The notes under the pieces: generated by a model
Databases searched by the model: none
What the model saw: the letters and a program-made list of their open reading frames with translations, nothing else
What the model was told of the DNA's origin: nothing
Made by a program: the position numbers and the translations under genes
NCBI GenBank assembly: GCA_035764005.1
Contig: DASTZZ010000098.1
Location: 1-60,529 of the forward strand
Direction of reading: 5' to 3'
Origin: Terriglobales bacterium
GTDB lineage: Bacteria > Acidobacteriota > Terriglobia > Terriglobales > Acidobacteriaceae
DNA length: 60,529 nt
Part shown: in pieces, positions 5,245 to 60,363 of the stretch
Numbering within the stretch: the stretch's first letter is position 1
How the letters are laid out: each line of letters starts with the position of its first letter

Positions 5245-5396
5245 GGGAACAGGTTACAGGGGACAGGGTACAGGGAAAAGCACAAAGGGAGTACTTCCCG
5301 CTGACCGGATGTGCAGCTAAAGCCAACAGGATGGACAGCTAAAAGAAGCGGTGGCTCTGAGCCGCCCTGTTCCCTGTAACCTGTCCCCTGTTCCCT
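5245..5396. repeat. Inverted pair of GGTTACAGGGGACAG arrays
   Basis: Positions 5245-5276 carry GGGAACAGGTTACAGGGG followed by ACAGGGTACAGGGA; positions 5364-5396 carry the reverse complement with small changes (CCCTGTTCCCTGTAACCTG then TCCCCTGTTCCC). About 85 bp separates the arms. The unit is a degenerate 7/14-bp word built from GGTTACAG and GGGACAG. The same word returns at 56254-56287 inside a gene. The pair fills the gap between rpmE and dusB and could fold into a long hairpin. Confidence 0.85.
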
Positions 5397-5400
5397 TGTC

Positions 5401-5634
5401 TTATTTCGTGCCTGTCTTCGCGCCCGCCTGCTCTGACTTGGCGTACTTGCGGCGGAAGCGCTCAACGCGACCGGCGGTATCGACCAGCTTCTGTTTGCCG
5501 GTGAAGAACGGATGGCAATTAGAGCAGATTTCCAGGTGGATATCGCCCTTATGGGTGGATCGGGTGGTAAAGCTGTTCCCGCACGCGCACATGACGCGTA
5601 TCTCGTTGTAAGCGGGATGAATCTTCTCTTTCAC
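5401..5634 (-). CDS. rpmE: 50S ribosomal protein L31 (zinc-binding form)
   Basis: Small protein of the large ribosomal subunit. The 77-residue product begins [12 protein letters not shown] and keeps the zinc ligands as CAC (residues 16-18) and CSNC (residues 37-40), so it is the C+ form, which can hold zinc. The lysine-rich tail after RKYAKSEQ is slightly long. It lies alone between the R1 repeat element and the cold-shock gene; in many bacteria rpmE sits beside prfA, but here prfA is 26 kb away. Confidence 0.95.
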
Positions 5635-5735
5635 AGTAAAACCTTCCTTGGATCACCGGGGCACACGGAGCCTCTCCGCGAGTTTTCCGGGAACTTCTAG
5701 TTTACGGGAATTCACCACAGTTCGGCAACGCGCGC

Positions 5736-5770
5736 AGTCCATCAAGTCCACCAAGTCCACTGAGTCCACC
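5736..5770. repeat. AAGTCCACY 9-bp array
   Basis: Four successive degenerate 9-mers of the form AGTCCAYCA / AGTCCACTG. The same word occurs as an inverted pair inside the gene at 50216-50920. Here only one arm is seen, directly next to the cold-shock gene terminator. Confidence 0.8.
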
Positions 5771-5772
5771 CC

Positions 5773-5802
5773 AAAAACGAAAGGGCGACCTTTCGGTCGC
5801 CC
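5773..5802 (-). terminator. Rho-independent terminator of the cold-shock gene
   Basis: Reading the minus strand, GGGCGACC and GGTCGCCC form a perfect 8-bp stem with a GAAA tetraloop (5783-5802), followed by TTTCGTTTTTGG. It lies 22 bases past the cold-shock stop codon. Confidence 0.88.
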
Positions 5803-5824
5803 CTGGTGTTCCGGTATTTCAGGA

Positions 5825-6025
5825 TTAGAGCGGTTGGACGCTCTCTGCCTGCCAACCCTTGGGTCCCTTCACGACGGTGAACTGCACCGGCTGGCCTTCT
5901 TTCAGGCTGCGAAATCCGTTGGCCTGAATTGCCGAAAAGTGCACGAAAACATCTTCGCCGTTCTGGCGGCTGATGAATCCGTAGCCCTTAGCGTCGTTGA
6001 ACCACTTAACTGTACCTTGTTCCAT
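5825..6025 (-). CDS. Cold-shock domain protein (CspA family)
   Basis: Single-stranded nucleic-acid-binding OB-fold protein acting as an RNA chaperone. The 66-residue product starts [18 protein letters not shown] and shows RNP1 (KGYGFI) and RNP2 (VFVHF) with the usual spacing. A purine-rich GGATTAGAGAG lies upstream of the ATG. The roughly 150-200 nt upstream before ppk would give a long 5' leader, as is common for csp genes; a TATACT on the minus strand (6146-6151) is a weak -10 candidate. It has its own terminator, so it is monocistronic. Confidence 0.95.
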
Positions 6026-6472
6026 AGTGTTGCTCTCTAATCCTTTAATCTTGTGAATTACGCTGAGATGTCAAGCGGAGGATACTTCAGGCAGGACCAG
6101 CTTTAAGGCGAGGACTGCTCACAACCGTGCATCTAACGCGGGCATAGTATACCAGAGAACATCCTTGTTCCCTCAGAAATTCTGCTTAATACTAACTATA
6201 GAGTTCGTGCTGAAGGGCCTTTTGTGCTCGCAGCTCGGCTAAGCCTTTACTGACCCGCAACTTGCCAGAGCGGTTCCATTCGACCACTCTTCCCGAAACT
6301 GTGAACCTATCAGATGCCGCACGGTTGTGGGCCTTCGCACATCGGAACACTTATATGGCTTTACGCCGGTTTGCTAAGCCATTCACCCATCAGGCTGCCA
6401 ATTCGAGGTCGGTCGCCGTGCGTTACACTTTTCTGAGCCCAACTGGCGTTCCTCCCCGCTCTTAGGCCGACC
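6026..6472. other. Intergenic region between divergent csp and ppk
   Basis: No convincing gene. It should hold the csp leader and promoter (minus strand) and the ppk promoter (plus strand). A minus-strand TATACT at 6146-6151 could be a csp -10 box, but no good -35 is at the right distance. No strong Shine-Dalgarno precedes ppk (only AGG 7-9 bases upstream). Confidence 0.5.
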
Positions 6473-8635
6473 ATGCCGCCTCTCTCGACTGATAAACCTG
6501 ACTACTTCCTGAATCGTGAACTATCGTGGCTCAAGTTCAACGAGCGTGTTCTTGAAGAGGCTGAAGATGAATCGAATCCGCTGTTGGAGCGGGTGAAATT
6601 TCTCAGCATTACAGCGTCCAACCTCGATGAATTCTTCGAGGTTCGCCTCGCCGGCCTTCTGCAGCGCATTGAAGACGGCTACATCATTCCTGGGCCTGAT
6701 GGATTGCCTCCGGAGCAGGAACTTGAGCTCGTCATTAAAGACGTAAAGCAATTCGTCGATGCTCAGTACTCGTCCTGGAACGACCACCTGCGTCCCGCGC
6801 TGGCCGAGAACGGCATTCGCATCCTTGCACTGAGCGATCTCGACACCAACGCCGCCGATTTTCTTGAAGAGTATTGCGAGCGCGAGGTCGATCCGCTGCT
6901 TACGCCCATTACGATCGATCCAGCGCACCCGTTTCCGCGTGTCGTGAACAAAGCGTTGTGCCTGGCATTCCTGCTGCGTCGGCGCCGGCGATCTTCGGCG
7001 GTTTACATGGGTGTGATTACGGTGCCGCGTTCGCTGCCCCGCATCCTGCGCGTGCCTTCTGACGAAGGCACCCACGATTACGTATTCCTTGCTGATCTGG
7101 TGGCAGCCCATGCTGCGAAGATGTATCGCGGGTACGAGATTATCTCCGCCGCAGCCTTTCGCGTTACGCGCAACAGCAATCTCTATTTGCAGGAAGAAGA
7201 GTCGCGCAATCTGCTCGAGTCAGTACGAACTGAGCTGCACAACCGTCGTAAGGGCGATGCGGTGAGACTTGAAATCGATGATGGCGCGGCTCCGGAGATC
7301 GTTGAGCGTCTCCGCGGTAATTTTGGACTCGAAGAATGGCAGGTATTTCGCACTCCCGGGCCAGTGAATCTTTCGCGCGTGTTGAGCATTCACGAGCAGA
7401 CGCCGCGTCCCGATTTGAAATTCCGGCCGTTCGTGCCGCGCGAACTGCATCTCACCGGCAAAGCGCGCGACATCTTCGAGGAAATTCGCAAGCACGACAT
7501 CCTCTTGCACCATCCCTTTGACTCGTTCAATGCCGTAGTCGGCTTCATTGAGACTGCAGCCAAAGATCCGAACGTGATCTCCGTTCGCCAGACTCTTTAC
7601 CGGACGGGCGAGGAGTCGCGCATTGTGCAAGCGATGATCGAAGCGGCCGCGAGTAAGGAAGTCACGGTGGTGGTCGAACTGAAAGCGCGCTTTGACGAAG
7701 CTTCGAACATTCGCTGGGCCCGCAGCCTTGAAGATGCAGGCGTGCAGGTCTTCCATGGCCTGGTCGGACTCAAGACGCATTGCAAGCTCACCCTGCTGGT
7801 GCGCCGCGATCCTGACGGCGTGACGCGCCGTTATGCCCATCTTGGGACCGGCAACTACAATGCGGTGACCGCCCGGTTCTATACCGACCTGAGTCTGCTG
7901 ACTGCAAACGAAGAAATTACCGAAGCCGTCCAGGAGGTCTTCAATTTCCTCACCGCCTATGCCGATCACGCGCACTACGACCCGCTGCTCGTCTCGCCTG
8001 TCGATTGCGCCGAGCGCACTATCGCGTTGATTCAACGGGAGGCAGATCATGCTCGCGCACGTCGTCCGGCACGCATTATCGGAAAGATGAATGCGCTTCT
8101 CGACAAGCCGGTGATTCAGGCCTTGTATCGTGCGTCGCAGGCTGGAGTCGAGATTGATCTCATTGTGCGCGGTATGTGCGCGCTTCGCCCGGGCGTTCGT
8201 GGAATCAGCGATCGCATTCGTGTGCGCAGCATTGTCGGCAGATTTCTGGAGCACAGCAGAATCTTTTCGTTCGCCAACGCCGGCGAGGAAGAACTCTATC
8301 TCGGCAGCGCCGATTGGATGCCGCGCAATCTTTACGAGCGCGTGGAGGTTGTTTTTCCGGTTTTCGATCCCTTGCTGAAGCAGCGGGTACGCCAGGAGAT
8401 TCTCGAATCGTATTTGGCCGACACCGCGAAGGCCCGCGTACTGCAATCTTCCGGCGACTACATTCGCGCCAGTGAACTGGCACGCGGAGGCCGACGTAGA
8501 AGGCTGCGCCCACTCTTCAACGCGCAGGAGTTCCTGATAGCATTAGCCGAGGGCAGCGCGTCGCTCGCATCGATTCCCCCCATTCCGGTGCGTTCGCAGC
8601 GACCACGTCCGCGTCACCGAGTTGAGCAGGCATGA
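6473..8635 (+). CDS. ppk: Polyphosphate kinase 1
   Basis: Makes inorganic polyphosphate from ATP through a phosphohistidine intermediate. The 720-residue product has the N-terminal FLNRELSWLKFNERVLEEA motif and the SNLDEFFEVRLAGL segment. The two conserved histidines are visible: RRYAHLGTGNYN (His456) and GRFLEHSRIF (His594, matching His592 of the E. coli enzyme), and the GSADWMPRNL motif follows. The C-terminus ends in a basic tail. The stop overlaps the next start as ATGA, coupling it to the sixA-like gene. It opens a four-gene polyphosphate region. Confidence 0.97.
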   Translation: MPPLSTDKPDYFLNRELSWLKFNERVLEEAEDESNPLLERVKFLSITASNLDEFFEVRLAGLLQRIEDGYIIPGPDGLPPEQELELVIKDVKQFVDAQYSSWNDHLRPALAENGIRILALSDLDTNAADFLEEYCEREVDPLLTPITIDPAHPFPRVVNKALCLAFLLRRRRRSSAVYMGVITVPRSLPRILRVPSDEGTHDYVFLADLVAAHAAKMYRGYEIISAAAFRVTRNSNLYLQEEESRNLLESVRTELHNRRKGDAVRLEIDDGAAPEIVERLRGNFGLEEWQVFRTPGPVNLSRVLSIHEQTPRPDLKFRPFVPRELHLTGKARDIFEEIRKHDILLHHPFDSFNAVVGFIETAAKDPNVISVRQTLYRTGEESRIVQAMIEAAASKEVTVVVELKARFDEASNIRWARSLEDAGVQVFHGLVGLKTHCKLTLLVRRDPDGVTRRYAHLGTGNYNAVTARFYTDLSLLTANEEITEAVQEVFNFLTAYADHAHYDPLLVSPVDCAERTIALIQREADHARARRPARIIGKMNALLDKPVIQALYRASQAGVEIDLIVRGMCALRPGVRGISDRIRVRSIVGRFLEHSRIFSFANAGEEELYLGSADWMPRNLYERVEVVFPVFDPLLKQRVRQEILESYLADTAKARVLQSSGDYIRASELARGGRRRRLRPLFNAQEFLIALAEGSASLASIPPIPVRSQRPRPRHRVEQA

Positions 8636-9279
8636 TCATCTACTTCGTTCGCCACGCTAGCGCAGGTCAGAAAAAACTCAGCGGAAAAAAAGACGAGAAG
8701 CGCCCCCTCGACCCCGACGGTGTGCAACAGTGTACGCAAATGGGGCGGGTCCTCTCGTCGATGGAAGTTGGCGTAGACGCCATCATCTCGAGTCCTCTGA
8801 AGCGTGCAACGCAGACCGCCGCTCTGATCGCGAACGAGATTGGCTACGATGGCAAGCTGCACATCGAGAACGCGCTGCGTCCTGAGGCCAAGTACGACCA
8901 CTTTCGCGACATGCTGCGCGATTACTCGAAGAACGAATCTATTCTGGTGGTCGGCCATAATCCCAACTTCAGCGACTTTCTTGGACGGACAATTGCCGGA
9001 AGCGGCGAGCGCGCGCACGTGGACATGAGGAAGGGCGCAGTCGCGAAGATCGAAAGCAAGCAGAAGAAGTACGTGCTCGACTGGCTGCTCACGCCGCGGC
9101 TGGCGAAAGCTGCAGCCGATGCCAATGCCGGTGACAGCACCGCTTCGAATGCCCCAAACGGGAATGGAGAATTCGAAATTCCGGACGAGTACTTGAGCGT
9201 ACGAGGAAAAAGCCTGACGAACAACGATCAGGGCGCTGGACGCACGACTAAATCCCGTCCGAAGACGTCGCGGAAGTAG
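8632..9279 (+). CDS. sixA: SixA-like phosphohistidine phosphatase
   Basis: Histidine phosphatase superfamily member of the SixA type, expected to remove phosphate from phosphohistidine. The product starts MIIYFVRHASAG with the catalytic RH, then SSPLKRATQTAA and LVVGHNPNFS with the second histidine. The core ends near residue 150; about 60 more residues form a low-complexity, basic tail ending TTKSRPKTSRK, longer than E. coli SixA (161 aa). It overlaps ppk by 4 bp, and its tail overlaps the convergent ppx gene by 52 bp. Coupling to ppk, itself a phosphohistidine enzyme, suggests but does not prove a role in polyphosphate metabolism. Confidence 0.85.
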   Translation: MIIYFVRHASAGQKKLSGKKDEKRPLDPDGVQQCTQMGRVLSSMEVGVDAIISSPLKRATQTAALIANEIGYDGKLHIENALRPEAKYDHFRDMLRDYSKNESILVVGHNPNFSDFLGRTIAGSGERAHVDMRKGAVAKIESKQKKYVLDWLLTPRLAKAAADANAGDSTASNAPNGNGEFEIPDEYLSVRGKSLTNNDQGAGRTTKSRPKTSRK

Positions 9280-10751: not shown

Positions 10752-10775
10752 AAGACGGTGAGTTGCTTTCCGAGA

Positions 10776-11627: not shown

Positions 11628-11651
11628 TCAAGAAAATCTGCTTTCGTGAGA

Positions 11652-12863: not shown

Positions 12864-12890
12864 GACGGGATAGTGTAAATCTAAAACCTA

Positions 12891-13034
12891 TTCACCACGG
12901 AGACACGGAGAACACGGAGGAACCTTGGGAGTTTTTCTGTGTAGGCCGCAACTCGCGATAATGCATTGAGTTTCCTCCCATGCAGAAAAAGATACTTTCG
13001 ACATTCTCCGTGTGCCCCGTGTCTCCGTGGTGAA
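12891..13034. repeat. Inverted pair of CACCACGGAGACACGGAG arrays
   Basis: Left arm 12891-12922 reads TTCACCACGGAGACACGGAG then AACACGGAGGAA; right arm 13004-13034 is its reverse complement with two or three changes (CTCCGTGTGCCCCGTGTCTC then CGTGGTGAA). The spacer is about 80 bp. The unit is an ACACGGAG-like 8-mer. The element separates selD from kbl. Confidence 0.88.
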
Positions 13035-13041
13035 TTACTTT

Positions 13042-14091
13042 CTATACAACTTCAATCGCCTTCTCGGCTTTTGGCAGCACTTCGCCGATCCGCACAGCCG
13101 GCACCCCAGCGACTTCCAGCGCGGCAACTACACCCTTCGCGATCTCGCTGGGAACCGAGAGCAGGAGACCGCCAGCGGTTTGTGGATCGTACAGCAGCGT
13201 CTTCAATTCTTCCGGACGCTCGCCTTTGTAGACGACGCAACATTCTGCAAAGTCACGGTTCGTATTAAGTCCTCCCGGAATGTACCGAGCCCGCACGCAT
13301 TCCAGCGCGCCAGGCAAAAGTTCGATTCGTTCGGCTTCTATACGGATTGTGGTCTTGCTGCCTATTGCCATCTCGCGCACATGACCGATGATGCCGAAGC
13401 CGGTGATGTCAGTCGCAGCATGAACGGTGAAGCCGCCTTGATGGATTACCTCGACGGCGCGATTGTTGAGCTTCGTCATAGACGCCATGGCGCCATCGAT
13501 CCATTCCTGCTTCGCTTTGCCTTTTTTGATTGCCGTCGAGATGACTCCTGTGCCAATGGCTTTCGTGAGCACGAGGGCATCACCAACTTTGGCCTTTGAG
13601 TTTGCCCAGAATTTCTTCGGATGAACACGGCCGGTGACAGAGTATCCGAGTTTCATTTCGGGATCGCGCACGCTGTGTCCGCCGGCGACAATGCATCCGG
13701 CTTCCTGCATCTTGGAGAGCCCCCCGGCGAGCATTTGTCCGAGCACTTCCAGATCACCCTCATCGGGAAAGCAGGAGATCGCTAGAGCGGTCATCGGCAT
13801 TCCGCCCATGGCATACACATCGCTGAGCGAGTTCACGGCCGCGATCTGTCCGAAAATGTAAGGATCATCGACGATTGGAGTGAAGAAATCGACCGTCTGC
13901 ACTAACGCCAGATCGTCCGAAAGACGGTACACTGCGGCGTCGTCGGCGGTATCGAAGCCGACCAGCAGGTTTTCGTCATGTTGCCGGGCTAATTTCCCAA
14001 GCACCGTGTCCAGCGCCGCCGGACTCAGCTTCGACGCTCAACCCGCAGCTTTCACCTGTTCCGTGAGCCGCAATGGACGGCGATCTTCCAT
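13042..14091 (-). CDS. selD: Selenide, water dikinase with selenocysteine at the active site (recoded UGA)
   Basis: Makes selenophosphate from selenide and ATP for selenoprotein and seleno-tRNA synthesis. The obvious part (GTG 14004 onward) matches SelD: LLVGFDTADDAAVYRL, TTDFFTPIVDDPY-like block, NSLSDVYAMGG, GGHSVRDPE, DITGFGIIGH and DPQTAGGLLLSV. That part lacks the catalytic N-terminus. Reading upstream in frame gives LTEQVKAAG, a TGA at 14038-14040, then ASKLSPAALDTVL, and an ATG at 14089-14091. E. coli SelD has AGCGCKISP here with Cys17 and Lys20; the TGA falls exactly on Cys17 and the lysine is kept. I therefore annotate a 349-residue selenoprotein with Sec18. SelA, SelB and tRNA-Sec are not in the window. 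Confidence 0.92.
14003..14029 (-). promoter_or_regulatory. Candidate bacterial SECIS hairpin for selD
   Basis: Starting 8 nt after the in-frame UGA, the mRNA GCUGAGUCC and GGACACGGU can pair (9 positions with one A-A mismatch and G-U wobbles) around the nine-base loop GGCGGCGCU. Location and size fit bacterial SECIS elements, which lie just 3' of the UGA in the coding sequence. Predicted by hand only. Confidence 0.5.
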
Positions 14092-14221
14092 GAACCCGAT
14101 TCTAGGGTGCGGGGAGCAAAACTGCCATGATTCACGCCCAGGTCAGAGGCGTAGGACGGCAGGCGGGCCTTTTGGGGGCAAAGTACTTGACACTATGCCT
14201 CTGTTCCAGCATTCTCGTTGA

Positions 14222-14866: not shown

Positions 14867-14872
14867 AGAGGT

Positions 14873-15256: not shown

Positions 15257-15436
15257 CCTCTCGCCGCTCTAACCTTCAAGCGATAACTGCTGTCGCGATC
15301 GCCTGAGTGAAACATGCGCACATTTGCCTCCCCGACGATCGTTTCACAACGCGCATCTTTCTTGGAAAACACCATCTTCATCGGCGAGAATAGCTGACAG
15401 AAGCACTATTTCAGGGCTGAACTAAAAGGACCACGC

Positions 15437-26910: not shown

Positions 26911-27120
26911 TTGTCATTCCGAACCGCCGGGGTTGGCGGTGAGGAATCCCTATCCATGTCTATGCGCGTGGATGGCACGGGCCTCTAGCAGCGTGGTAGA
27001 GAAGGCGCGAAATGAGAGTGCACTCAATTCAAATCTCCGCGTTCTAAAATTTGCGAATGCAGCCGGCATCGAGGCCATAGGGATTCCTCGCCGCCAAAAT
27101 CGGGCGGTTCGGAATGACAA
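26911..27120. repeat. Long palindromic element, TTGTCATTCC ends
   Basis: A 210-bp element between the ECF sigma start and gatB stop. The outer ends TTGTCATTCC and GGAATGACAA are perfect reverse complements, and pairing continues for about 40 bp (CGAACCGCC.../...GGCGGTTCG; GAGGAATCCCTAT/ATAGGGATTCCTC). The central about 125 bp is unpaired. It shares its ends with the element at 3777-3941. It carries no gene. Confidence 0.88.
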
Positions 27121-30370: not shown

Positions 30371-30625
30371 AGGCCCGGGCCGACATAAGCGCAGCCCAGC
30401 GGCGTAAGCCCTGGGTTAACCGTGCCTCTCGAATCCGAGCTTGTAAGGGCGGCATTTTGGGCGACCGGACAATGGAGTCATTCAGATCCAAATGGGAACG
30501 CCGCAACCTTGGAACCGGGAGAGTGCCCCGCCGAAGGATGGCGCCCTTACGGGGCTCCGATGACCCGATGTACATTCCCAGGACTTACGCTGCTGGGCTG
30601 CGCTTATTTCGGCCCTTTGGGGCCT
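30371..30625. repeat. Long palindromic element, AGCCCAGCGGCGTAAGCCCTGGG family, copy A
   Basis: The two arms (about 85 bp each) are near reverse complements: left AAGCGCAGCCCAGCGGCGTA...CTTGTAAGGGCGGC, right GCGCCCTTACGGGGC...TACGCTGCTGGGCTGCGCTT. The element lies between convergent ruvX and prmC. A second copy is at 55558-55765. No protein is encoded in it. Confidence 0.9.
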
Positions 30626-33681: not shown

Positions 33682-33839
33682 GCCTGCCCAGCGCCAAAGT
33701 GGTAACCTGTAACAGTTACCAGCAAAACTCTTCCATTATACGTTAGGCACGTGCCAACGCCGCGCGTATGGTATCGGGTCAGTGCCTCGCGCAACTTTTT
33801 GCCAGATCTTCAGTTTGGCAGTTACGAACCCTCATTTCG

Positions 33840-34235
33840 ATGAGTAATTTACCTGAGAAGATTCAATCAGCCACCCAGGAGCTTCGCCGCCTTCAGGAGG
33901 AGATCCAGACCTCGACGACGGCTCCAAATCTGGCGGAGGCCGATTCTAATGCTATTCGCGAGTTCAAGGCGGCGATCGGCTATGTACGGCAGCTTCTCTG
34001 GAATCTGATTCAAGCTGACACCCTTCAAAGGGGGCAGAGTGTCGACGAGGAAGTCCGCAGCCTGCGCCTGCAGCGCGTGACCGAAATGCTGCACGCGATC
34101 CAGCAAGAAGCCAAAGTGCGAAAGTTGACACCCACTCCCGCTACAGTAACCTTCTTGAATGCTGTGCATGACATTGCCGACGCCGCTTTCGAGCGACATT
34201 CGGGTTCAGGAACGGAAGTCGATAAGGCGAGCTAG
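33840..34235 (+). CDS. Conserved hypothetical helical protein
   Basis: 131 residues, no domain recognised. Predicted mostly alpha-helical: NLPEKIQSATQELRRLQEEIQTS, REFKAAIGYVRQLLWNLIQAD and DEEVRSLRLQRVTEMLHAIQQEA. No signal peptide or membrane segment. Start ATG 33840; the frame is open 24 codons upstream but without family-like sequence. Divergent from DUF1385 and followed by the DNA ligase. Confidence 0.6.
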   Translation: MSNLPEKIQSATQELRRLQEEIQTSTTAPNLAEADSNAIREFKAAIGYVRQLLWNLIQADTLQRGQSVDEEVRSLRLQRVTEMLHAIQQEAKVRKLTPTPATVTFLNAVHDIADAAFERHSGSGTEVDKAS

Positions 34236-34253
34236 GTGGCTAGGGTTGCCAAG

Positions 34254-34300
34254 TAGTCAGCGTTCAGTGGCAAACCGCTTTGCCGATTGCTGACTGCGGA
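34254..34300. repeat. GTCAGCGTTCAG / CCGATTGCTGACTGCG inverted words
   Basis: Short imperfect palindrome made of the TCGGC/TCAGC-type word also seen at 36052-36147 and 60164-60363. It lies just before the ligase start and creates a false in-frame TTG start. Confidence 0.5.
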
Positions 34301-34325
34301 TTACTTTTCCCGCTACCATCCTTCC

Positions 34326-36047
34326 ATGCTGCGCTTCGCCCAGCTCTGTGAAGCTGTTGCTGCAACCCCGAAGAAGCTGGAGAAGCGCAGGCTCGTCGCC
34401 GAGTACTTTTGCGCGCAGCCGGAGCAGACTGCTTCACAGGCGGCCATTTTCCTCTCCGGCGATGTCTATCCCGCATTTTCTGAGCGTACGCTCAACGTCG
34501 GTGGCTCGATCGTTTGGCGAGCCGTGCAGCAGATCACCGGAGCTTCTGAACAGGAGATGTCGGCAGCTTATCGGCGAACCGGAGATCTCGGAGCCGCTGC
34601 CCACCTTATATGGCCTGCGAAGTTCACCGGCTCCCTCCTCACTCTTCCCGATTTGACAAAGCTACTTGATGACATCGCAGTCGCGCATGGTCCGGCCGCA
34701 AAGCTGGAGAGAGTGACAGCCCTGCTGAGACAATGCTCGGCTCTCGAAGCAAAGTATGCGATCAAAATCATCGTTGGTGATTTGCGCATTGGAATGCGCG
34801 AGAGTCTGGTCGAGGAAGCAATTGCCGCAGCCTACGGCAAACCGGAATCAGCCGTACGACGTGCCAACATGCTGCTCGGCGATATCGGCGAAACGTTGCG
34901 TCTGGCTGCAGAAGACCGGCTGACTGAAGCACAGATGCGGCTCTTCCACCCGATCGGCTTTATGCTCGCTGCGGAAGTGAAATCGAGTGACGAAGCCCTG
35001 TCGTATTTCGAGGATGCCCAGGTGGAGGACAAATACGACGGCGTTCGCGCGCAAGTCCATTGCGGTGAGGGTAAAGTACGCATCTTCTCGCGGACGCAGG
35101 ACGACATCGCCGAATCATTTCCCGAATTGATACCGGTGTTCGCAGGTGTGCGCACGCAATTGGTCCTCGATGGCGAGATTCTTGCCTGGGGAACGGATGC
35201 AAGCGGCGCCGCATCTGCAGGGAGCGCTTTGCCATTCTCTGCTCTACAGAAAAGGCTCGGTCGCAAGCGCGTCACCGAAAAGATGATGCGCGAGGTTCCT
35301 GTCGTATACGTCGCCTTCGATGTACTCTTCGCTGGCGATGAGATGGTCATCGATCGTCCGCTGCGGGAACGATCTGAGCTTCTGGCGCAGATCATTGCAG
35401 AAATGCCCGCAACCACATCCAGTGATGGCTTCTCTGAGCAGGGCAGCCTTTCTTTTGACGAAGAAACAGCCATGGTATCGATGCCTCGCATATTCCGCGC
35501 GCCTTTTGCCGCTGCGCACACATCGGAAGACATCGATCGCATCTTCGTCGAGGCGCGTGCCCGCGGAAATGAAGGTTTGATGATTAAGAATCGCACTTCT
35601 CTCTATGCTCCCGGCCGGCGTGGACACGCTTGGCTCAAGATGAAGCGCGAACTGGCGACGCTCGATTGCGTAGTTACCGCAGTCGAGTTTGGAAACGGCA
35701 AGCGCGCCGGCGTCTTGAGCGACTACACCTTCGCCGTTCGCGGAGAGAATGGCCGCCTGATGAATGTGGGCAAAGCCTACTCAGGATTGACCGACGCCGA
35801 GATTGCAGAGATGACCGAATGGTTCAAGCAGCACACGCTGGCCGACTTCGGTCACTCACGCCTGGTCGAACCGAAGATCGTGCTGGAAGTAGCGTTCAAC
35901 AACATCATGCGTTCCGATCGGCACGAGAGCGGCTTCGCTCTGCGCTTCCCGCGTATTGTGCGCCTGCGTCCAGACAAGCCGCCGGAAGAGGCGGATACAG
36001 TGAAGCGCGTAGAAGAGATCTACTTGAGCCAGCATCGGGCGGAATAA
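34326..36047 (+). CDS. ATP-dependent DNA ligase (archaeal/LigB type)
   Basis: Seals nicks with ATP. The 573-residue product has an N-terminal DNA-binding domain (FAQLCEAVAATPKKLEKR...), the adenylation motif VEDKYDGVRAQVH with the nucleophile Lys236, LVLDGEILAW (motif III), FDVLFAGDEM, EGLMIKNRTSLYAPGRRGHAWLKMKRE (motifs IV-V) and an OB-fold tail. Length and motif spacing match archaeal Lig1-like enzymes carried by some bacteria beside NAD-dependent LigA. ATG 34326 is chosen over an upstream TTG that lies in repeat DNA. The usual helicase/exonuclease partners of bacterial LigB-like ligases are not adjacent. Confidence 0.92.
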   Translation: MLRFAQLCEAVAATPKKLEKRRLVAEYFCAQPEQTASQAAIFLSGDVYPAFSERTLNVGGSIVWRAVQQITGASEQEMSAAYRRTGDLGAAAHLIWPAKFTGSLLTLPDLTKLLDDIAVAHGPAAKLERVTALLRQCSALEAKYAIKIIVGDLRIGMRESLVEEAIAAAYGKPESAVRRANMLLGDIGETLRLAAEDRLTEAQMRLFHPIGFMLAAEVKSSDEALSYFEDAQVEDKYDGVRAQVHCGEGKVRIFSRTQDDIAESFPELIPVFAGVRTQLVLDGEILAWGTDASGAASAGSALPFSALQKRLGRKRVTEKMMREVPVVYVAFDVLFAGDEMVIDRPLRERSELLAQIIAEMPATTSSDGFSEQGSLSFDEETAMVSMPRIFRAPFAAAHTSEDIDRIFVEARARGNEGLMIKNRTSLYAPGRRGHAWLKMKRELATLDCVVTAVEFGNGKRAGVLSDYTFAVRGENGRLMNVGKAYSGLTDAEIAEMTEWFKQHTLADFGHSRLVEPKIVLEVAFNNIMRSDRHESGFALRFPRIVRLRPDKPPEEADTVKRVEEIYLSQHRAE

Positions 36048-36051
36048 GAAG

Positions 36052-36147
36052 GCGCTCGGCACTCGGCTGTCGGCGTTCGGCCAGTGGACTGTTTAGCTTC
36101 ACCGAAAAGGTTACTGGCCGAAAGCTGACAGCCGAAAGCCGACAGCG
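36052..36147. repeat. Inverted pair of CGGCTGTCGGC arrays
   Basis: Left arm GCGCTCGGCACTCGGCTGTC then GGCGTTCGGCCAGT (to 36084); right arm ACTGGCCGAAAGCTGACAG then CCGAAAGCCGACAGCG (36113-36147). The arms are reverse complements with scattered changes and a 28-bp loop. The element separates the convergent ligase and rlmI genes and could end both transcripts. Confidence 0.85.
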
Positions 36148-45270: not shown

Positions 45271-45279
45271 GACAATTCC

Positions 45280-50202: not shown

Positions 50203-50215
50203 GAGCTCAGTGCCA

Positions 50216-50920
50216 TTACCGGCCACGTGCTTGCGCGCGAACGCGGTAGAGGCGTTCGGCAAACCCTCCCTCACGTTCAAAGGCGGCAGCAAGAGAAGCA
50301 AGCTGGCGATCAAGCAGGCTGCACGCTACCGCAATTAGCACCAACGCAGCATTCGCGGCAATTTCGGGAAAAGTGGACTCAGTGGACTTGGTGGACTTAG
50401 TGGACGAAGGCGACGACTGCGAGCCCCTCGCACCGATATTGATCTTGTTTGGTTCACTGCGTCCACTCAGTCCACTGGGTCCACCAAGTCCACTCAGTCC
50501 ACGTTGTTCTTGCACCCACAGAGCCACGCAATCAGCGCTCGTGCATCGCCGTGCAATCAAACTTTCGCGCCTCCGATCTTGCCGATCCCAAATTGGCAGG
50601 CCGCGCTGCCGAAGAAAGTCTTCATAATCGAGGTGCAGCTCTTCTAGACTTGCACGCGCTACGTTGGTCAATTTGAGTTCGGTCTTCTTTGAGGTGCCGG
50701 CAGCCTGGCTGCCTTCGGCAATGTTTTGCACTCCGCTCCTGGCTGCCTGGACCATCTGATCGTGGGTACGGCTGCGCTTCTCGACGTATCGATCGCAGAA
50801 GCGGATAGTCACGTCGTAAATCAATTGAGCTACTTGAAAGCTCTTGAGCTTGCGATAACCGCCACGTTTAGGAATCAGCGGCTCTTTTTCGCGCGTATCG
50901 CGGGCTTCCGCGCTGCACAG
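50216..50920 (-). CDS. Four helix bundle protein with C-terminal 'suffix' domain; unusual start and repeat insert
   Basis: S23-like four-helix-bundle protein of unknown function. Family sequence begins upstream of the first usable TTG (50824): PLIPKRGGYRKLKSFQVAQLIYD, then YVEKRSRTHDQMVQAARSGVQNIAEGS, NVARASLEELHLDYEDFLRQRGLPIWD, and a C-terminal suffix NAALVLIAVACSLLDRQLASL. The frame closes upstream at 50924-50926 (TGA), and the only start-like codon before the conserved part is CTG 50920; a frameshift after an out-of-frame ATG (about 50928) is possible. Residues around the middle (RGLSGLGGPSGLSGRSE and SSTKSTKSTESTF) come from the 9-bp repeat arrays at 50373-50502, read in frame. Confidence 0.72.
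   Translation of the reverse strand: MCSAEARDTREKEPLIPKRGGYRKLKSFQVAQLIYDVTIRFCDRYVEKRSRTHDQMVQAARSGVQNIAEGSQAAGTSKKTELKLTNVARASLEELHLDYEDFLRQRGLPIWDRQDRRRESLIARRCTSADCVALWVQEQRGLSGLGGPSGLSGRSEPNKINIGARGSQSSPSSTKSTKSTESTFPEIAANAALVLIAVACSLLDRQLASLAAAFEREGGFAERLYRVRAQARGR
50373..50502. repeat. Inverted pair of GTGGACTTR 9-bp arrays inside a coding gene
   Basis: 50373-50405 has GTGGACTCAGTGGACTTGGT then GGACTTAGTGGAC; 50461-50502 has GTCCACTCAGTCCACTGGGT then CCACCAAGTCCACTCAGTC. The arms are inverted copies of the word seen at 5736-5770, about 55 bp apart. Nine-base units keep the reading frame of the gene that contains them. Confidence 0.9.
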
Positions 50921-50994
50921 ATATCATTCTGAACGCCGTTCTAGCGATCAACCACGCCAATTCACCTGCGGGTGGATTAACATTGCTCTCCCAC

Positions 50995-55430: not shown

Positions 55431-55457
55431 TCACGCCATACAATAAAATTGACCGAT

Positions 55458-55534
55458 GGCCCTGTAGCTCAGATGGATAGAGCAGCGGTTTCCTAAACCG
55501 TTGGTCGGCAGTTCGACTCTGCCCAGGGCCTCCA
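55458..55534 (+). tRNA. tRNA-Arg (anticodon CCU)
   Basis: GGCCCTG and CAGGGCC form the acceptor stem, followed by T and encoded CCA. The anticodon arm CGGTT/AACCG encloses TTCCTAA, giving anticodon CCU (reads AGG). GTAGCTCAGATGGATAGAGC is a normal D arm and GGCAGTTCGACTCTGCC the T arm. Confidence 0.97.
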
Positions 55535-55557
55535 TCGTACCCAAGATTCACCAGATT

Positions 55558-55765
55558 AGGCCCGAAGGGCTGACAGAAGCGGAGCCCAGCGGCGTGAGCC
55601 CTGGGTAAGTCCGGTTGCAGTCCAGAGCCCTGAAAGGGCGGCATCCCGCCTTGGAAAACGTCCAATTTTTCGTACCGATGTCGCCCTTTCAGGGCTCGGT
55701 CTCGTTGGTCGCACCAACCCAGGGCTCACGCCGCTGGGCTCCGCTTCTGCCAGCCCTTCGGGCTT
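55558..55765. repeat. Long palindromic element, AGCCCAGCGGCGTGAGCCCTGGG family, copy B
   Basis: Arms of about 85 bp: left AAGCGGAGCCCAGCGGCGTG...AGCCCTGAAAGGGCGGC, right GTCGCCCTTTCAGGGCT...GAGCCCAGC read from the other strand. It shares the central words with 30371-30625. It lies between tRNA-Arg and the heparinase-like gene. Confidence 0.9.
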
Positions 55766-55853
55766 GTGGTCTGGCGACGGAGGAGACTGAATAGGGCCCA
55801 CCCGGAAGGGGCAAACGGTACAATCCCGACCATTCGAAAATTCATCGGTCAGG

Positions 55854-58055
55854 ATGATCCCTCCTTCCACTGCCTGGAAACTCGTGCGCGACCTCGGTCC
55901 GGGTTGGGCGCTCCGCCGGTTGCGAATTGAAGCTGAGTTGAGGCTGGGAATTGTCGAGCGGCGTTTGCCGGTTTCAGATTGGAACTTCACAGTCGGCAAT
56001 GCGTCTGACAATGAGACCAGAGTTGGCGATCCACTTAGATCTGAACTCCTCAGATCGAAATTTTTCTTCTCCCCGCAACAACTCCCGAAACCTGTTTGCT
56101 CGGCTCAAGTCTGCCGCGATGCAGATCGGGTCTTGGCCGGTGAGTGGCCGTACTTCTCACATTCATGGTTCCAGATCGGCTTTCCTCCCGACTGGCATCT
56201 CAATGTGCTCGATGGAAGTCGTGCTGATGATGCGAGACACTGGAGCCGCACGGCAGGTTACAGGGGACAGGTTACAGGGGACAGGGACGGCAGCGATATC
56301 AAGTTTGTCTGGGAACCTAGCCGATTCTCGGTGGTGTACTTGCTGGTTCGCGCTTATGCGGCGAGCGCAGATGAAAGATATGCAGAGGCTTTCTGGACTC
56401 TGGTGGAGGATTGGGCGGAGGTGAATCGGCCGAATTGTGGCGTGAACTGGGCCAGCGGGCAGGAAGCTGCCTTTCGCGTGATGGCGTGGTGCTTCGGTCT
56501 GTTCGGGTTCCTGAATGCCTCGTGTTCCACTTCGGAACGAGTCTTCCGCCTTGCGCGAATGATTGATGTTCACGGTGACAGGATCGCGGGATTCATCGAA
56601 TACGCGCTTTCACAGCGGAACAATCACGGCATCAGCGAAGCAGTGGGGCTGTTCACGATTGGCGTTCTGTTTCCTCATCTAGCGCGCGCGGCCGAGTGGA
56701 CCAGAATGGGACAGCTGCTGATCGTCTCGCAACTGCGCGAGCAGGTTTATGAAGACGGTAGCTACATTCAGCATTCGTTCAACTACGAACGCGTGCTCAT
56801 CGATCTGCTGATCTGGGCGCTCCGGCTCGGCGAGATCCACGAAGTGCGCTTCGCCGCCGAATGTTATGAAGCGCTCGACCGCTGCCTGGCATTTATGGTT
56901 CGCTTCTGCCATTTGCGCAGCGGGCGCATACCCAACTACGGAGCGAATGACGGCACTCTTTTGTTGCCATTAACGAACTGCGATTACACAGATTTTCGGC
57001 CTTCCATCGATGCCGCACATCAGTTGCTTCACGGCAAGCCACTCTTGCGCGAAGGTCCGTGGAGTGAGTTATCGGCTTGGCTCCTCGGACGTCCTCTGTC
57101 GGACCGAGCCGCCGCGGATTCTTCCATTCCGGCATTGCGTTACATCCGAGCAAGTCAGCCTACGGCTTCCTCTGGTCCTCCGAAGAGACTTCCTCCTTCT
57201 GGATACCTGAACCTGATTGCCAACGAAAGTAACGGGATGCTGCGAGCAGGGCGATACGAAGATCGTCCGTCACAGGCTGATCAGTTGCATTTTGATCTGT
57301 GGTGGCGAGGGCAAAACGTAGCCTGCGACGCCGGATCGTATCTGTACAACGCTGGTCCATTATGGGCAAACGCGCTCGCCGGTACGGCGGTGCACAACAC
57401 CGTCACGATCGCCGGACGCGATCAGATGACGCCTGCCGGACGGTTCCTCTGGCTCGATTCGGCCCAGGCTTCCTCTGAAAACTATTCCATTGGAACTCAA
57501 GCACAAGCGGTCACGGCGTATCACAACGGCTACCGTCGTCTTGGCGCAACGCACCGAAGGTCAATACTGTGCTTCCAGGAGGCGGATCTGTGGATCGTTG
57601 TCGATGATGTGACGGGAAGCTACTCAGGCGAAGTCCAGTTGCATTGGCTCTTTCCAGACGTTCCGTTCCGGTTCGATCTCGATCCAATCAGGCTGTTGCT
57701 GCAGTTTCCTGAAGGTGATTTCAACTGCGCGATCATCGCTGACCACCCATTCTCGACAAGTCTGGCCAGGGCAGGTCAACTAATTAGCGGAGCAGACGAC
57801 TTATCGGTATGTGACAAAGAAATTCGCGGCTGGCGCTCGCTGTACTACGGGAGCAAGGATCCGGCTCTATCGTTAGGCGCACGCGCGGCGGCTGCCCTGC
57901 CGATGAGGTTCGTGACATTGTTTCATCCCGCTGAAGTGTCGGTGGAACAATTCAGTCCGACGTGCGTGGCTTTTCAAGCCGCAGGCACAACCTACGCAGT
58001 TGGATTGCAGGCCATCGGAACTCCGAAGATTTTCACGACGGTCCATCAAGCGTGA
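55854..58055 (+). CDS. Heparinase II/III family protein with in-frame repeat insert
   Basis: Polysaccharide lyase-like protein of 733 residues. An alpha-helical toroid comes first (RFSVVYLLVRAYAASADERYAEAFW, NRPNCGVNWASGQEAAFRVMAWCFGLFGF, HGISEAVGLFTIGVLFPHL, SYIQHSFNYERVLIDLLIWALRLGE), then a heparinase II/III beta domain (LHFDLWWRGQNVACDAGSYLYN, GTAVHNTVTIAGRDQM, DLWIVVDDVTGSYSG). Such genes often sit in glycan biosynthesis or breakdown loci. Residues around 132-145 (TAGYRGQVTGDRDG) are encoded by the repeat at 56254-56287 and look like an insert between HWSR and DIKFVWEPSRF. No signal peptide is evident. Confidence 0.88.
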   Translation: MIPPSTAWKLVRDLGPGWALRRLRIEAELRLGIVERRLPVSDWNFTVGNASDNETRVGDPLRSELLRSKFFFSPQQLPKPVCSAQVCRDADRVLAGEWPYFSHSWFQIGFPPDWHLNVLDGSRADDARHWSRTAGYRGQVTGDRDGSDIKFVWEPSRFSVVYLLVRAYAASADERYAEAFWTLVEDWAEVNRPNCGVNWASGQEAAFRVMAWCFGLFGFLNASCSTSERVFRLARMIDVHGDRIAGFIEYALSQRNNHGISEAVGLFTIGVLFPHLARAAEWTRMGQLLIVSQLREQVYEDGSYIQHSFNYERVLIDLLIWALRLGEIHEVRFAAECYEALDRCLAFMVRFCHLRSGRIPNYGANDGTLLLPLTNCDYTDFRPSIDAAHQLLHGKPLLREGPWSELSAWLLGRPLSDRAAADSSIPALRYIRASQPTASSGPPKRLPPSGYLNLIANESNGMLRAGRYEDRPSQADQLHFDLWWRGQNVACDAGSYLYNAGPLWANALAGTAVHNTVTIAGRDQMTPAGRFLWLDSAQASSENYSIGTQAQAVTAYHNGYRRLGATHRRSILCFQEADLWIVVDDVTGSYSGEVQLHWLFPDVPFRFDLDPIRLLLQFPEGDFNCAIIADHPFSTSLARAGQLISGADDLSVCDKEIRGWRSLYYGSKDPALSLGARAAAALPMRFVTLFHPAEVSVEQFSPTCVAFQAAGTTYAVGLQAIGTPKIFTTVHQA
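56254..56287. repeat. Tandem GGTTACAGGGGACA repeat inside the heparinase-like gene
   Basis: Two perfect 14-bp units (56256-56269 and 56270-56283) with partial flanking copies. Same word as 5245-5396. The frame stays open across it. Confidence 0.9.
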
Positions 58056-58196
58056 GCGAACTTCGAGGCAAACAAGCATAGTGAAGCGGCGACTCGCAGA
58101 ATCATTCACGACGGAAAAGGCAACATGCCGCCTTTCTGACGAATGCTCAGCCGGCGTGAACTCGACGATCTGATCGCGTATATTAAGACCCTGTGA
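58056..58196 (+). pseudogene. Remnant of a cytochrome c C-terminus
   Basis: Reading in the frame of the heparinase gene past its stop gives EAATRRIIHDGKGNMPPF, a TGA at about 58137, then RMLSRRELDDLIAYIKTL and a stop at 58194. The GKGNMPPF...LSxxELDDLIAYIKTL pattern is the methionine-ligand loop and last helix of class I c-type cytochromes. No CXXCH haem motif or upstream part is present. It is a decayed fragment. Confidence 0.65.
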
Positions 58197-58225
58197 TCGT
58201 GAGTTCCCTCTATTAGTTGCTAAAG

Positions 58226-58444
58226 CTAGTCCCGAAAAATCCGTGACTCGTCTCCCAACTCTGGATCCCCTGATTCGAACAAGCGAGTTGAGGGCGGGCG
58301 GCGATCGGAATAGAAGGCAGATGCGATAATTCGTGGGTCTTGTCGTAATAGCTCAGACGGGCAATATCCGGCATCACGAGCACGCTTCAAAGCGCGCACG
58401 TCATTTCGCGTAAGGCGGACGGTCACAGAAATAAAAAGCGACAT
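58226..58444 (-). CDS. Small protein, possible ribbon-helix-helix type
   Basis: 72 residues from ATG 58444: MSLFISVTVRLTRNDVRALKRARDAGYCPSELLRQDP. The pattern of a short strand (SVTVRLT) followed by two helices (NDVRALKRARDAG, SELLRQD) resembles a ribbon-helix-helix DNA-binding protein. GGTGA lies 5 nt upstream of the ATG. No toxin gene is adjacent. It could also be a chance frame. Confidence 0.4.
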   Translation of the reverse strand: MSLFISVTVRLTRNDVRALKRARDAGYCPSELLRQDPRIIASAFYSDRRPPSTRLFESGDPELGDESRIFRD

Positions 58445-58580
58445 ACATTCACCAGACAATCAGCAAGTCGCTAAGCAATTCTCGCATCACGTTTGCAAGT
58501 TTGCTAGTAACGCAAACATCATGTAAGAATTTTGCTGGTTTCGCCAAATCCAAACTCGAGCCTAAATTCAAAGCTGCTAA

Positions 58581-58964
58581 ATGATTTCGAAATCCTGCAT
58601 TCTTTTACTCCTGTGTGGATCGATGCTGGCCGCTGATCAATCCTGCCCCGTAACCGTTACGAAAACAGAGATCCTTCCAGGCATGAGAGGGGACGCTATT
58701 AGCGTTGAATTTAGGAATCTTGGTGATAAGCCCGTAGCCGCGGAAAAGTTCTTCTACAACTGGGTCGACGGAGTAGGAGATGAACGTCCGGGTGGTGCTT
58801 TGGTCTCTCAAAAGAAGCTCAAACCGGGTGACAAGAAAGCGATCGGCTCCGGACCTGTGCCTCACCCAGATGGCACCTACCCACACGCTTGGGTTGCAGT
58901 TACAAAATTTGCAGACGGCAGCACATGGCGTGACGACGGATCGCATTCGTGTGGTGCGAAGTAG
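58581..58964 (+). CDS. Small secreted protein of unknown function
   Basis: 127 residues with a signal peptide (MISKSCILLLLCGSMLAADQSC; the cysteine after LAADQS could be lipidated or disulfide-bonded). The mature part looks like one immunoglobulin-type beta-sandwich: CPVTVTKTEIL, AISVEFRNLGDKPVAAEKFFYNW, KKLKPGDKKAIGSG, HAWVAVTKFADGSTW and a terminal cysteine (HSCGAK) that may pair with the first. Partners unknown. Confidence 0.7.
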   Translation: MISKSCILLLLCGSMLAADQSCPVTVTKTEILPGMRGDAISVEFRNLGDKPVAAEKFFYNWVDGVGDERPGGALVSQKKLKPGDKKAIGSGPVPHPDGTYPHAWVAVTKFADGSTWRDDGSHSCGAK

Positions 58965-58979
58965 TTCGTTCTGCGGGCA

Positions 58980-59009
58980 TTGACACCCTCTCCGGGACTC
59001 CGCTATCCT
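58980..59009 (+). promoter_or_regulatory. Promoter of rplM-rpsI
   Basis: TTGACA (58980-58985) and TATCCT (59004-59009) are separated by 18 bp, a near-consensus sigma-70-type promoter. It lies about 140 nt before rplM, leaving a leader with a GGGCG-TAGT-CGCCC hairpin near 59108-59121. Confidence 0.7.
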
Positions 59010-59151
59010 CAATTTGTAGTAGTATTCCTACGCGTTGTGTAGGCTGCAAGCGCCCTTCTAACTGATCAGTTTAAGTGGTTGGCTTCTTGCCTTGCTTTTT
59101 CGTAGGACGGGCGTAGTCGCCCCTCCCTTTATCTCTTTTGGAGAATTTGGA

Positions 59152-59586
59152 ATGTCCACCAGTTTCCCCACTGCGGGGAAAATCGCGCGCAAGTGGTACG
59201 TGGTCGATGCCACGGACCAGACTTTGGGCCGCCTTGCGACCAAGGTAGCTCACGTTCTCGCGGGCAAGCATAACCCGCAGTACACGCCGTTTATCGACAC
59301 CGGCGACCACGTGATCGTGGTGAACGCGGCCAAGGTGAAATTGACCGGCATGAAGGCCGGACAGAAAGTTTATCGCCGCTACACCGGATTCCCGGGCGGT
59401 CTGCGTGAAGAGCAGTTCGAGAAGCGCATTGCACGGCGTCCGGAAGCGGTTGTGGAAGACGCGATCAAAGGCATGCTGCCCAAGACCAAGCTCGGCCGAG
59501 CGATGGGAAGCAAGCTGAAGGTTTATCGCGACGATAAGCACACGCATGCTGCACAGAAACCCGAGCCGCTGGCAGTCGGAAAATAA
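59152..59586 (+). CDS. rplM: 50S ribosomal protein L13
   Basis: Large-subunit protein. The 144-residue product has [59 protein letters not shown] and [25 protein letters not shown] 59152 is preceded by TTGGAG; the frame is open 20 codons further up but without family sequence. A normal rplM-rpsI pair. Confidence 0.97.
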
Positions 59587-59736
59587 GCTACGAAGCTTCG
59601 GAGCCGCGCAGCCTCGAAGCTTGCTTTTAGGTTTAGAGACACTGATGCTCTTAGCGACCGGGTTGCTGAGAGCGAAGCAGTTAACAATTTGAGGTTCAGG
59701 CTACGAGGCTTCGCAGCTGCGTAGCTTCGAAGCTTC
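59587..59736. repeat. Two copies of a CTACGAAGCTTCGnAGC word between rplM and rpsI
   Basis: 59588-59624 (CTACGAAGCTTCGGAGCCGC then GCAGCCTCGAAGC) and 59700-59736 (CTACGAGGCTTCGCAGCTGC then GTAGCTTCGAAGC) are direct copies, and each is itself nearly palindromic. They flank about 75 bp and lie inside a single ribosomal operon. Confidence 0.85.
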
Positions 59737-59759
59737 TGTACACAGGAAACGAAAACAGA

Positions 59760-60155
59760 ATGGCTGATCTGGTTCAGTATTACGGCACGGGACGTCGTAA
59801 ATCGAGCATCGCTCGCGTGTTTTTGCGTCCCGGCAGCGGAAAGTTCACCGTCAATGATCGCGAGTTTGACAAATACTTTGTCACCGACGCGCAGCGCGTA
59901 GCTGCCAAGTCTGCTCTGGTGAGCAGCGAGACTGGCACGACTTTTGACGTCATTGCCAACGTCCACGGCGGCGGAGTCAACGGACAGGCCGACGCGGTGA
60001 AGATGGGCATTGCCCGCGCACTGCTTGAGTTCAACGTCGAGCTTCGCAAGAAGCTGAAGGGTGAAGGTCTGCTCTCGCGTGATGCGCGCGGCAAAGAGCG
60101 CAAGAAGTACGGACAAAAGGGAGCAAGAAAGCGCTTCCAATTCTCGAAGCGCTAG
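59760..60155 (+). CDS. rpsI: 30S ribosomal protein S9
   Basis: Small-subunit protein of 131 residues: [49 protein letters not shown], and the basic tail [18 protein letters not shown] that reaches the P-site tRNA. Preceded by GGAAACG-type purines. Follows rplM. Confidence 0.97.
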
Positions 60156-60163
60156 CGCGCTTC

Positions 60164-60363
60164 GAGGCTATCGGCTGTCGGCCATCGGCTTTCGGCTTTT
60201 TGAGGGAGTCCTCAAATTCAATGCCGGAAGTCGGGGCTTTCACCGTGCATCGAGTTTGAAGTCGTAATGTTGTTCAACTGAAGAAACGGTAATTAGCTGA
60301 AGATCGGTAGCGGAAACATGTTTTGGCCGATAGCCGATTGCCGACAGCCGAAAGCCGGTTTTT
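60164..60363. repeat. Inverted pair of CGGCTGTCGGCCATCGGC arrays
   Basis: 60164-60202 (GAGGCTATCGGCTGTCGGCC then ATCGGCTTTCGGCTTTT) and 60325-60363 (GGCCGATAGCCGATTGCCGA then CAGCCGAAAGCCGGTTTTT) are inverted copies with about 120 bp between them. Related to 36052-36147. It fills the rpsI-rpsB gap. Confidence 0.88.

Follow-up and report, generated by a model that had tools for sequence, protein, structure and literature searches.

The subject of this analysis is a set of degenerate word arrays in a 60,529-nucleotide stretch of DNA (the window) from a Terriglobales bacterium, assembly GCA_035764005.1, contig DASTZZ010000098.1, positions 1 to 60,529. In each array a short word is repeated with small changes, and most arrays occur as the two inverted arms of a hairpin. 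Considered together with loci elsewhere, these arrays are probably the ends of very small mobile elements, each built around one small gene, often of the S23 four-helix-bundle family (PF05635/TIGR02436). Arrays and hairpins are given without strand, and the neighboring genes named rpmE-, rplM-, rpsI-, and rpsB-like are those that we take to be such from their sequence.

An ACAGGGG-word (7-mer) hairpin lies at 5244..5396 (arms 5244-5275 and 5365-5396), a few nucleotides past the stop of the minus-strand rpmE-like gene; this gene was absent from the output of the rough gene caller and was placed by reading the sequence. Upstream of it is a single AGTCCAC (9-mer) array (5736..5770), where two aligned congeners have other sequence. 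The CACGGAG-word hairpin at 12890..13035 stands 6 nt from the stop of the gene at 13042-14004 (minus strand), and at this site the congener G108 has the CACGGAG word with a different loop and G054 a CGGC array. Past the stop of the open reading frame (ORF) at 33768-34235 (plus strand) lies a TCAGC-word hairpin (TCAGCGTTCAG/ATTGCTGACT, 34252..34298), within which the start of a mechanical ORF at 34287-36047 would fall. This hairpin is absent from the arm-finder list, has a minimum free energy of -23.8 versus -12.4 ± 3.0 for shuffles, and resembles in its word, by eye only, the arms of a broken S23 locus (L319/L320). Between the convergent stop codons at 36047 and 36151 is a TNTCGGC-word (7-mer) hairpin (36052..36147) whose arms match those of the S23 element L315 with a score of 26.5, as does its inner end GTTCGGCCAG by eye.

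The window itself contains an S23-variant gene at 50216..50824 (minus strand), which matches TIGR02436 (four helix bundle protein) and the TIGR04258 suffix domain and scores 34.3 bits against PF05635 (cut-off 33.8); its start codon is uncertain. Inside it lies an AGTCCAC (9-mer) hairpin (50370..50505) whose arrays are read in frame (...STKSTKSTEST...), an arrangement like that in the paralogue L322. The single GGTTACAGGGGACAG array at 56254..56287 is also in frame, inside the ORF at 55854-58055 (plus strand), and amounts to ∼8 residues that are missing from the orthologues in G108 (L090) and G054 (L091). Toward the end of the window, a GAAGCTNC-word (8-mer) hairpin (59587..59736) directly follows the rplM-like stop ahead of the rpsI-like gene, and a TNTCGGC-word hairpin (60166..60356; score against L315, 21) begins 10 nt past the rpsI-like stop, upstream of the rpsB-like gene, where the congeners have other sequences. 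Adjoining spacers of this ribosomal protein gene cluster (59585-60356) carry two different word hairpins. All seven of the window hairpins tested folded well below shuffled sequence.

The arrays are thus present where the first-pass annotation had placed them, but the word CGGCTGTCGGC that it read at 34254 is not, the TCAGC-word hairpin standing there instead. Its unit range of 7 to 14 bp held at the short end, with units of 7 (ACAGGGG, TNTCGGC), 8 (GAAGCTNC), and 9 (AGTCCACNN, CACGGAGNC), the 14 being 2 × 7. Its inverted arms apply to most arrays, which are paired with fixed polarity, but not to those at 56254 and 5736, which are single.

Over 460.5 kb, made up of the window and 20 arbitrary 20-kb stretches of its genome, a de novo scan returned 54 inverted pairs whose arms were at least 20 nt long, versus 5 in one Markov-1 control (longest arm, 24 nt). 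The five families originally named are real, but the genome was found to hold more hairpin families than these. Nor are the words confined to a few copies: genome-wide, ACAGGGG was found at 36 places, AGTCCAC at 75, CACGGAG at 68, and GATTTCG at 42, compared with 1, 4, 0, and 1, respectively, for reversed-pattern controls. Neighboring CACGGAG arrays within 450 bp faced inward in 17 cases and never outward or along the same strand (∼0.4 expected in all). The corresponding inward, outward, and same-strand counts were 7, 0, and 1 for ACAGGGG and 8, 0, and 0 for GATTTCG, so that the excess of inverted pairs anticipated at the outset was found; AGTCCAC was the exception, with both polarities occurring. 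Since 68 CACGGAG, 31 ACAGGGG, and 40 GATTTCG arrays entered this count, many arrays have no partner at the mismatch limits used. Arm separation ranged from 10 nt to several hundred, the unit number varied within arms (one arm of L085 has about nine units), and perfect arrays were also found (e.g., L344). The distribution extends well beyond one genome: within the family, 48 of 120 genomes carried CACCACGGAGNCACGGAG (0 to 84 copies per genome); the genome collection yielded at least 120 stretches with it, from records carrying the names of many phyla, and the viral contigs yielded 88. Six CACGGAG elements (L049, L053, L062, L063, L065, and L066) contain in their loops a second, nested hairpin of a different family.

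The gene most closely associated with the arrays was found to encode an S23 protein. The source genome gave nine PF05635 matches, eight above the cut-off, at eight loci, and none was found in 14 control genomes. In a separate scan, seven of the eight loci were found between the arms of an inverted pair, with a different word each (CGGC, CAGCTAC, AATAGGC, GTTTCGG, TCAGCAA, GTGGAC, and GATTTCG). The S23 gene of the TCAGCAA locus is broken, the PF05635 match of the GATTTCG locus is below the cut-off, and the right arm of the GTGGAC locus (L322) lies within the reading frame. The eighth locus is the window gene with its in-frame AGTCCAC hairpin. Comparable long-loop pairs spanned 0.3% of the genome sample (two pairs), and only 1 of 1,500 random pseudo-genes was enclosed.

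The same association was observed elsewhere. Of 199 genomes of the phylum, 99 contained PF05635. Enclosure was here defined as an inverted array pair scoring at least 16 around the gene; among 29 loci from other genomes, chosen by protein score with at most one per genome, 23 were enclosed, versus 19 of 812 mismatched pairs of left and right flanks. Of 22 further loci (18 from plasmids, fetched from 33 matching records, and 4 from viral contigs, with several near-copies), 17 were enclosed, versus 27 of 462 mismatched pairs. The plasmid loci were mainly cyanobacterial, with others from Azospirillum, Gemmatirosa, and Treponema saccharophilum, and ACAGGGG-like words surrounded the S23 genes of Nostoc and Anabaena plasmids (L361, L362, and L371). 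S23 is often the enclosed gene, mostly with 7-mer words: heptamer units were found in 35 of 46 enclosed rows (62 rows in all, fragments and near-copies included). One S23 protein searched against phage records gave no match. The cyanobacterial plasmid elements L360 and L371 have different words and lie between genes annotated cas6 and cas4, apparently as independent insertions into the same spacer.

Other members enclose a GxxExxY gene (TIGR04256) with CACGGAG-like words. A pattern-based look at long loops found no cognate gene for CACGGAG; the gene was identified through a scan for long-loop pairs combined with a six-frame profile search, the protein of L211 being GxxExxY by TIGR04256. Five of six word-selected loci have GxxExxY inside CACGGAG arms, one of the five as a fragment, and the sixth lies at a contig edge. 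Among plasmid loci selected by protein (five of eight matching records fetched), three of five have the gene enclosed by other arrays of 9-mers, in one case between fabD and fabG. The GxxExxY protein had no relative among the viral contigs. GIY-YIG genes were found at five loci (four of six matches in the source genome and one in G108) inside hairpins of another type, and those of L326 and L328 are not inside such hairpins. Elsewhere in the source genome, GIY-YIG genes sit within GTCATTCCGAACCGC...GGAATCCCTA-type arms (L325 and L327).

Support for mobility was obtained from filled and empty sites. The plasmid C site of Trichormus variabilis (L363) differs from that of a Nostoc linckia NIES-25 plasmid (L386) and a Tolypothrix PCC 7601 plasmid (L387) by exactly 428 bp, comprising the arms and the S23 gene. 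The flanks are identical at 610/616 and 683/700 positions (L386) and at 609/616 and 681/700 positions (L387). The 5-bp sequence GTAAT, which includes the upstream TAA stop codon, borders the insert at each end and is present in a single copy in the empty site. At the same site, plasmid pC052_E of Nostoc C052 (L388) has a decayed copy, reduced to a single arm plus the start of the S23 gene. In a second pair (L373/L392), an element of ∼500 bp lies at an overlapping TAATG stop/start, with ATG (3 bp) as the exact direct repeat. Because of these direct repeats, insertion is a simpler account than precise loss. At the L361 site, a Nostoc ATCC 53789 plasmid (L389) has a hairpin whose outer ends are similar and in which no S23 gene is annotated, and a Nostoc C057 plasmid (L390) is without the hairpin. 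Match listings, unaligned, point to additional filled/empty polymorphism at the L370 and L366 sites. Of the two origins first suggested for the arrays, mobilization in trans fits as far as mobilization goes, since the words flank small genes and precise filled and empty sites exist.

The window sites were compared with congeners G054 and G108, which align with the window at ∼68 to 90% in the longer matches. At the rplM-rpsI and rpsI-rpsB spacers, both rpmE flanks, and 12890, these genomes mostly had a different word or hairpin. The rpsI locus was present in five of six genomes of the genus (source genome included), and by eye all ten spacers flanking rpsI in the five held an array or palindrome, of several kinds; the rplM-rpsI site held an array or hairpin in all five, of three kinds, also by eye. 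The palindrome GTAGAGACGCAGCATGCTGCGTCTCTAC occupies this spacer in two congeners (L105 of G108 and L106 of G120). Word hairpins lay closer to 3' than to 5' gene ends. In a set of 44 of them, 3 at edges and 1 within a gene, drawn mostly from the loci collected for three words, the median distance to the adjoining 3' gene end was 7 nt, with 32/37 within 30 nt, and that to a 5' gene end was 51 nt, with 12/43 within 30 nt; these distances rely on the rough gene caller, which skipped some genes.

Two other types of hairpin were observed in the window. Long hairpins with AGCGGAGCCCAGCGGCGTGAGCCCTGGG-type arms occur at 55560-55763 and 30377-30615, and since similar arms at L033:3882-4567 enclose an IS200/REP-transposase-like ORF, this family looks like ordinary Y1-transposase hairpins. 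A GTCATTCCGAACCGC...GGAATCCCTA hairpin occupies 26911-27120, and at this site (26933) one hairpin family is common to all three congeners, with different loops.

The relation between word and protein was examined across the enclosed loci. Word similarity tracked protein identity (Mantel r = 0.48, with 0 of 2,000 permutations as high), and the 20 pairs with at least 70% protein identity, many of them near-copies, all had the same word in the same polarity, with none opposite. Among short hairpins in the genome sample, 11 of 49 matched a word of the genome's own S23 loci (one of the 11 being the window hairpin inside the S23-variant gene) and 38 did not; the latter belong to other families or to words for which no gene was found. 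Five of the seven own S23 words were represented among the short hairpins, versus 9 of 37 words from other genomes, and no match was of opposite polarity.

On this evidence we consider it probable, at roughly 0.78, that each very small mobile element has word arrays as its two ends, around one small gene. Such an element would consist of inverted arms, each with ∼3 to 6 degenerate copies of a 7- to 9-bp word, and one small gene between them, whose product would recognize its own word array and be required for movement. The gene-less hairpins of the window would be non-autonomous relatives or remnants. Once transcribed, the hairpin would probably be cut by RNase III, like reports for the S23-ORF intervening sequences (IVSs) of 23S rRNA. 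Tolerance within operons may be explained by the position right at stop codons together with this probable cutting, and if the same spacers were struck repeatedly, congeners would be expected to share the hairpin shape but differ in the word at one site, as was observed.

Several observations weigh against this reading. Six of the 29 phylum loci and five of the 22 plasmid and viral-contig loci fell below the enclosure threshold; of the latter five, L369, L374, and L375 have visible arrays (scores of 13.5 to 15), and L359 and L380 (8 and 9) show none. Three S23 genes happened to fall within CACGGAG-selected loci, and one passed (L277, score 23); L201, from a Flavobacteriales record, scored 13 with a visible array, and L174 scored 8. 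Unrelated ORFs lie between the arms of further long-loop CACGGAG or CGGC pairs (L041, L117, L243, L263, L283, and L294). In the source genome no gene was found for CACGGAG, ACAGGGG, or GAAGCTNC, including a cognate for the GAAGCTNC-word hairpins, although GxxExxY was not searched there. Direct repeats are known from two sites only, with different lengths, and both elements bear a gene. The word-protein signal lies above ∼60% identity (Spearman 0.03 over all 990 pairs) and could come from simple common descent of the unit instead of recognition; unit length clusters weakly on the protein tree (7 changes, where shuffles averaged 8.5 and 11 of 200 were as low). None of 66 hairpin loops keeps a recognizable piece of S23, GxxExxY, or GIY-YIG, and loops within one word family are mostly unrelated (12 related pairs among the 66, several from nested GTCATTCC hairpins). 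Recent internal deletion is therefore unsupported in the source genome, and the gene-less copies may derive from old internal deletions, their loops having since decayed, or the arms may move without the interior. To our knowledge, S23 has no catalytic domain, and its putative role in movement is inferred from the co-inheritance of word and protein.

A second possibility, which is compatible in part with the one favored here, is that the arms are moved by a host nuclease, by a transposase encoded elsewhere, or by homologous recombination, with S23 and GxxExxY as passengers or protectors. The arms that surround unrelated genes or no ORF, as some further long-loop CACGGAG pairs do, the loops without gene remnants, and the naming of both S23 structures found (2gsc, of the Xanthomonas campestris protein XCC0516, and 2rld) as merely "uncharacterized" would all fit this account, but it explains less readily why close protein relatives share the word and why several unrelated small genes occupy the same place. 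We regard it as possible rather than likely. In the CGGC pair at L041:821-1497, the arms surround an unrelated ORF of ∼200 amino acids and no S23 gene; the ORF may be cargo, or the arms may be two separate single arms.

It is improbable that the hairpins are simply selected RNA 3' ends, i.e., terminators, stabilizers, or RNase III sites. The few nucleotides that separate them from stop codons and the strong folding of the seven window hairpins agree with such a function, but selection for pairing alone would preserve neither word nor polarity nor an enclosed gene, and some hairpins lie within operons (rplM-rpsI and fabD-fabG). Slightly less probable still is that global regulators (IHF/HU or unknown ones) bind DNA at the paired arrays, an idea put forward for Geobacter metallireducens. 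The same anatomy has been published there, with opposite-strand pairs of octamers, TCTCCGTS[Y] units, and heptamers at variable distance (PMC2700814), but the enclosure of a small gene far above control, the clean inserts with direct repeats, the wide range of arm distances, and the arrays within ORFs speak against it. Least probable is the other first-pass suggestion, local slippage and template switching that build and tidy arrays in place without mobility. The variable unit number and the perfect arrays fit it, and slippage may set the unit number per arm, but it is unneeded for pairing, polarity, and dispersal and is strained by the recurrence of one word, in one polarity, at dozens of unrelated places and in records named for many phyla, and by precise filled and empty sites, above all a 428-bp insert between flanks 99.0% and 97.6% identical.

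A bolder form of the mobile-element reading, which we offer tentatively as possible rather than likely, is that these are a new kind of element of ∼430 to 500 bp with no known transposase, whose array ends are read by its own four-helix-bundle protein and which enters at stop codons. Entry might then proceed via mRNA, with cutting or insertion tied to translation termination and followed by DNA copying. The word would shift as the protein diverges, so that one class could seed unrelated-looking repeats over many phyla, including repeats now taken for regulator sites or quadruplexes. If the elements are what they appear to be, heptamer arrays, paired "regulator sites," quadruplex repeats, and hairpins past stop codons would have one origin, two families named by shape or motif (four helix bundle protein and GxxExxY protein) would gain a possible role, the origin of the 23S rRNA IVSs would become directly testable, and candidate genes should be sought inside paired arrays.

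Among known systems, REP/RAYT (repetitive extragenic palindromes and their associated tyrosine transposases) consists of a Y1 transposase with its own dispersed hairpin per enzyme, in gene-bearing and gene-less copies. Cognate dispersed hairpins and copies with and without a gene are shared with the present elements, but S23 is not a Y1 nuclease and the arms are word arrays, not short palindromes. REP/RAYT was dropped as an explanation of the word hairpins because the enclosed proteins scanned matched TIGR02436, TIGR04258, or TIGR04256; a Y1-like gene was found in the separate family of L033, as a 96-amino-acid piece matching IS200/REP transposase models below cut-offs. As in miniature inverted-repeat transposable elements, dispersed copies share ends with a gene-bearing element (the 11 of 49 hairpins), but the internal sequence of the parent is not kept in the 66 loops, the partial gene of L388 lying outside the source genome. 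Diversity-generating retroelements (Avd) were rejected because two proteins scored 20.5 and 27.2 bits against NF033474, whose cut-off is 80; no search for a reverse transcriptase was made. Cyanobacterial STRR repeats are a further class of short repeats.

Several repeats described in print are closer in form. Patchy TAACTGA repeats were described by MacGregor in 2015 (PMC4679880), and Geobacter bemidjiensis has many multicopy sequences between genes (PMC2996986). In the P6b stem of the Nostoc trnL intron, a stem of repeat units, the repeat class was swapped several times at the same site (PMC4476775); this is a single locus in a group I intron, with no gene in the account given. The Xanthomonas GGGAATC heptamer arrays include 70 cases of two convergent sites in Xcc and were studied as G-quadruplexes, generally with no link to mobile elements in the sections concerned (PMC4692102). 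For G. metallireducens, Aklujkar et al. (2009) described paired tandem repeats of classes 1 to 3 as putative IHF/HU global regulator sites, with opposite-strand arrays of 7- to 9-bp words at variable distance in classes 1 and 2 and a different sequence in between at proBA of G. sulfurreducens (PMC2700814). Reverse-complemented, CACGGAGA gives the class 2 unit TCTCCGTS, whose opposite-strand pairing recurs in the CACGGAG hairpins, but a loop gene and mobility of the pair are not mentioned in the passages on these repeats (PMC2700814). The initial impression that no named bacterial element has this form therefore needs qualification: paired word arrays are already in print for Geobacter and Xanthomonas, without the present explanation in the sections describing them, and among the open-licence matches listed, no link of S23 or GxxExxY to word arrays was found (GxxExxY searched narrowly, supplements excluded).

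The closest parallel is the 23S rRNA IVS of Coxiella burnetii, an S23 ORF in terminal inverted repeats, 428 nt long and called selfish, which RNase III cuts in vitro and for whose origin transposition is one hypothesis (PMC4990558). Its functionality and origin are described as still unclear (PMC4990558). The present elements likewise hold an S23 ORF inside terminal inverted repeats. They differ in that the sites inspected lie between protein genes, right at stop codons (no search of rRNA genes was made), that their arms are word arrays varying from copy to copy (the arms of rRNA IVSs were not compared), and that they have dispersed gene-less relatives and demonstrated empty sites.

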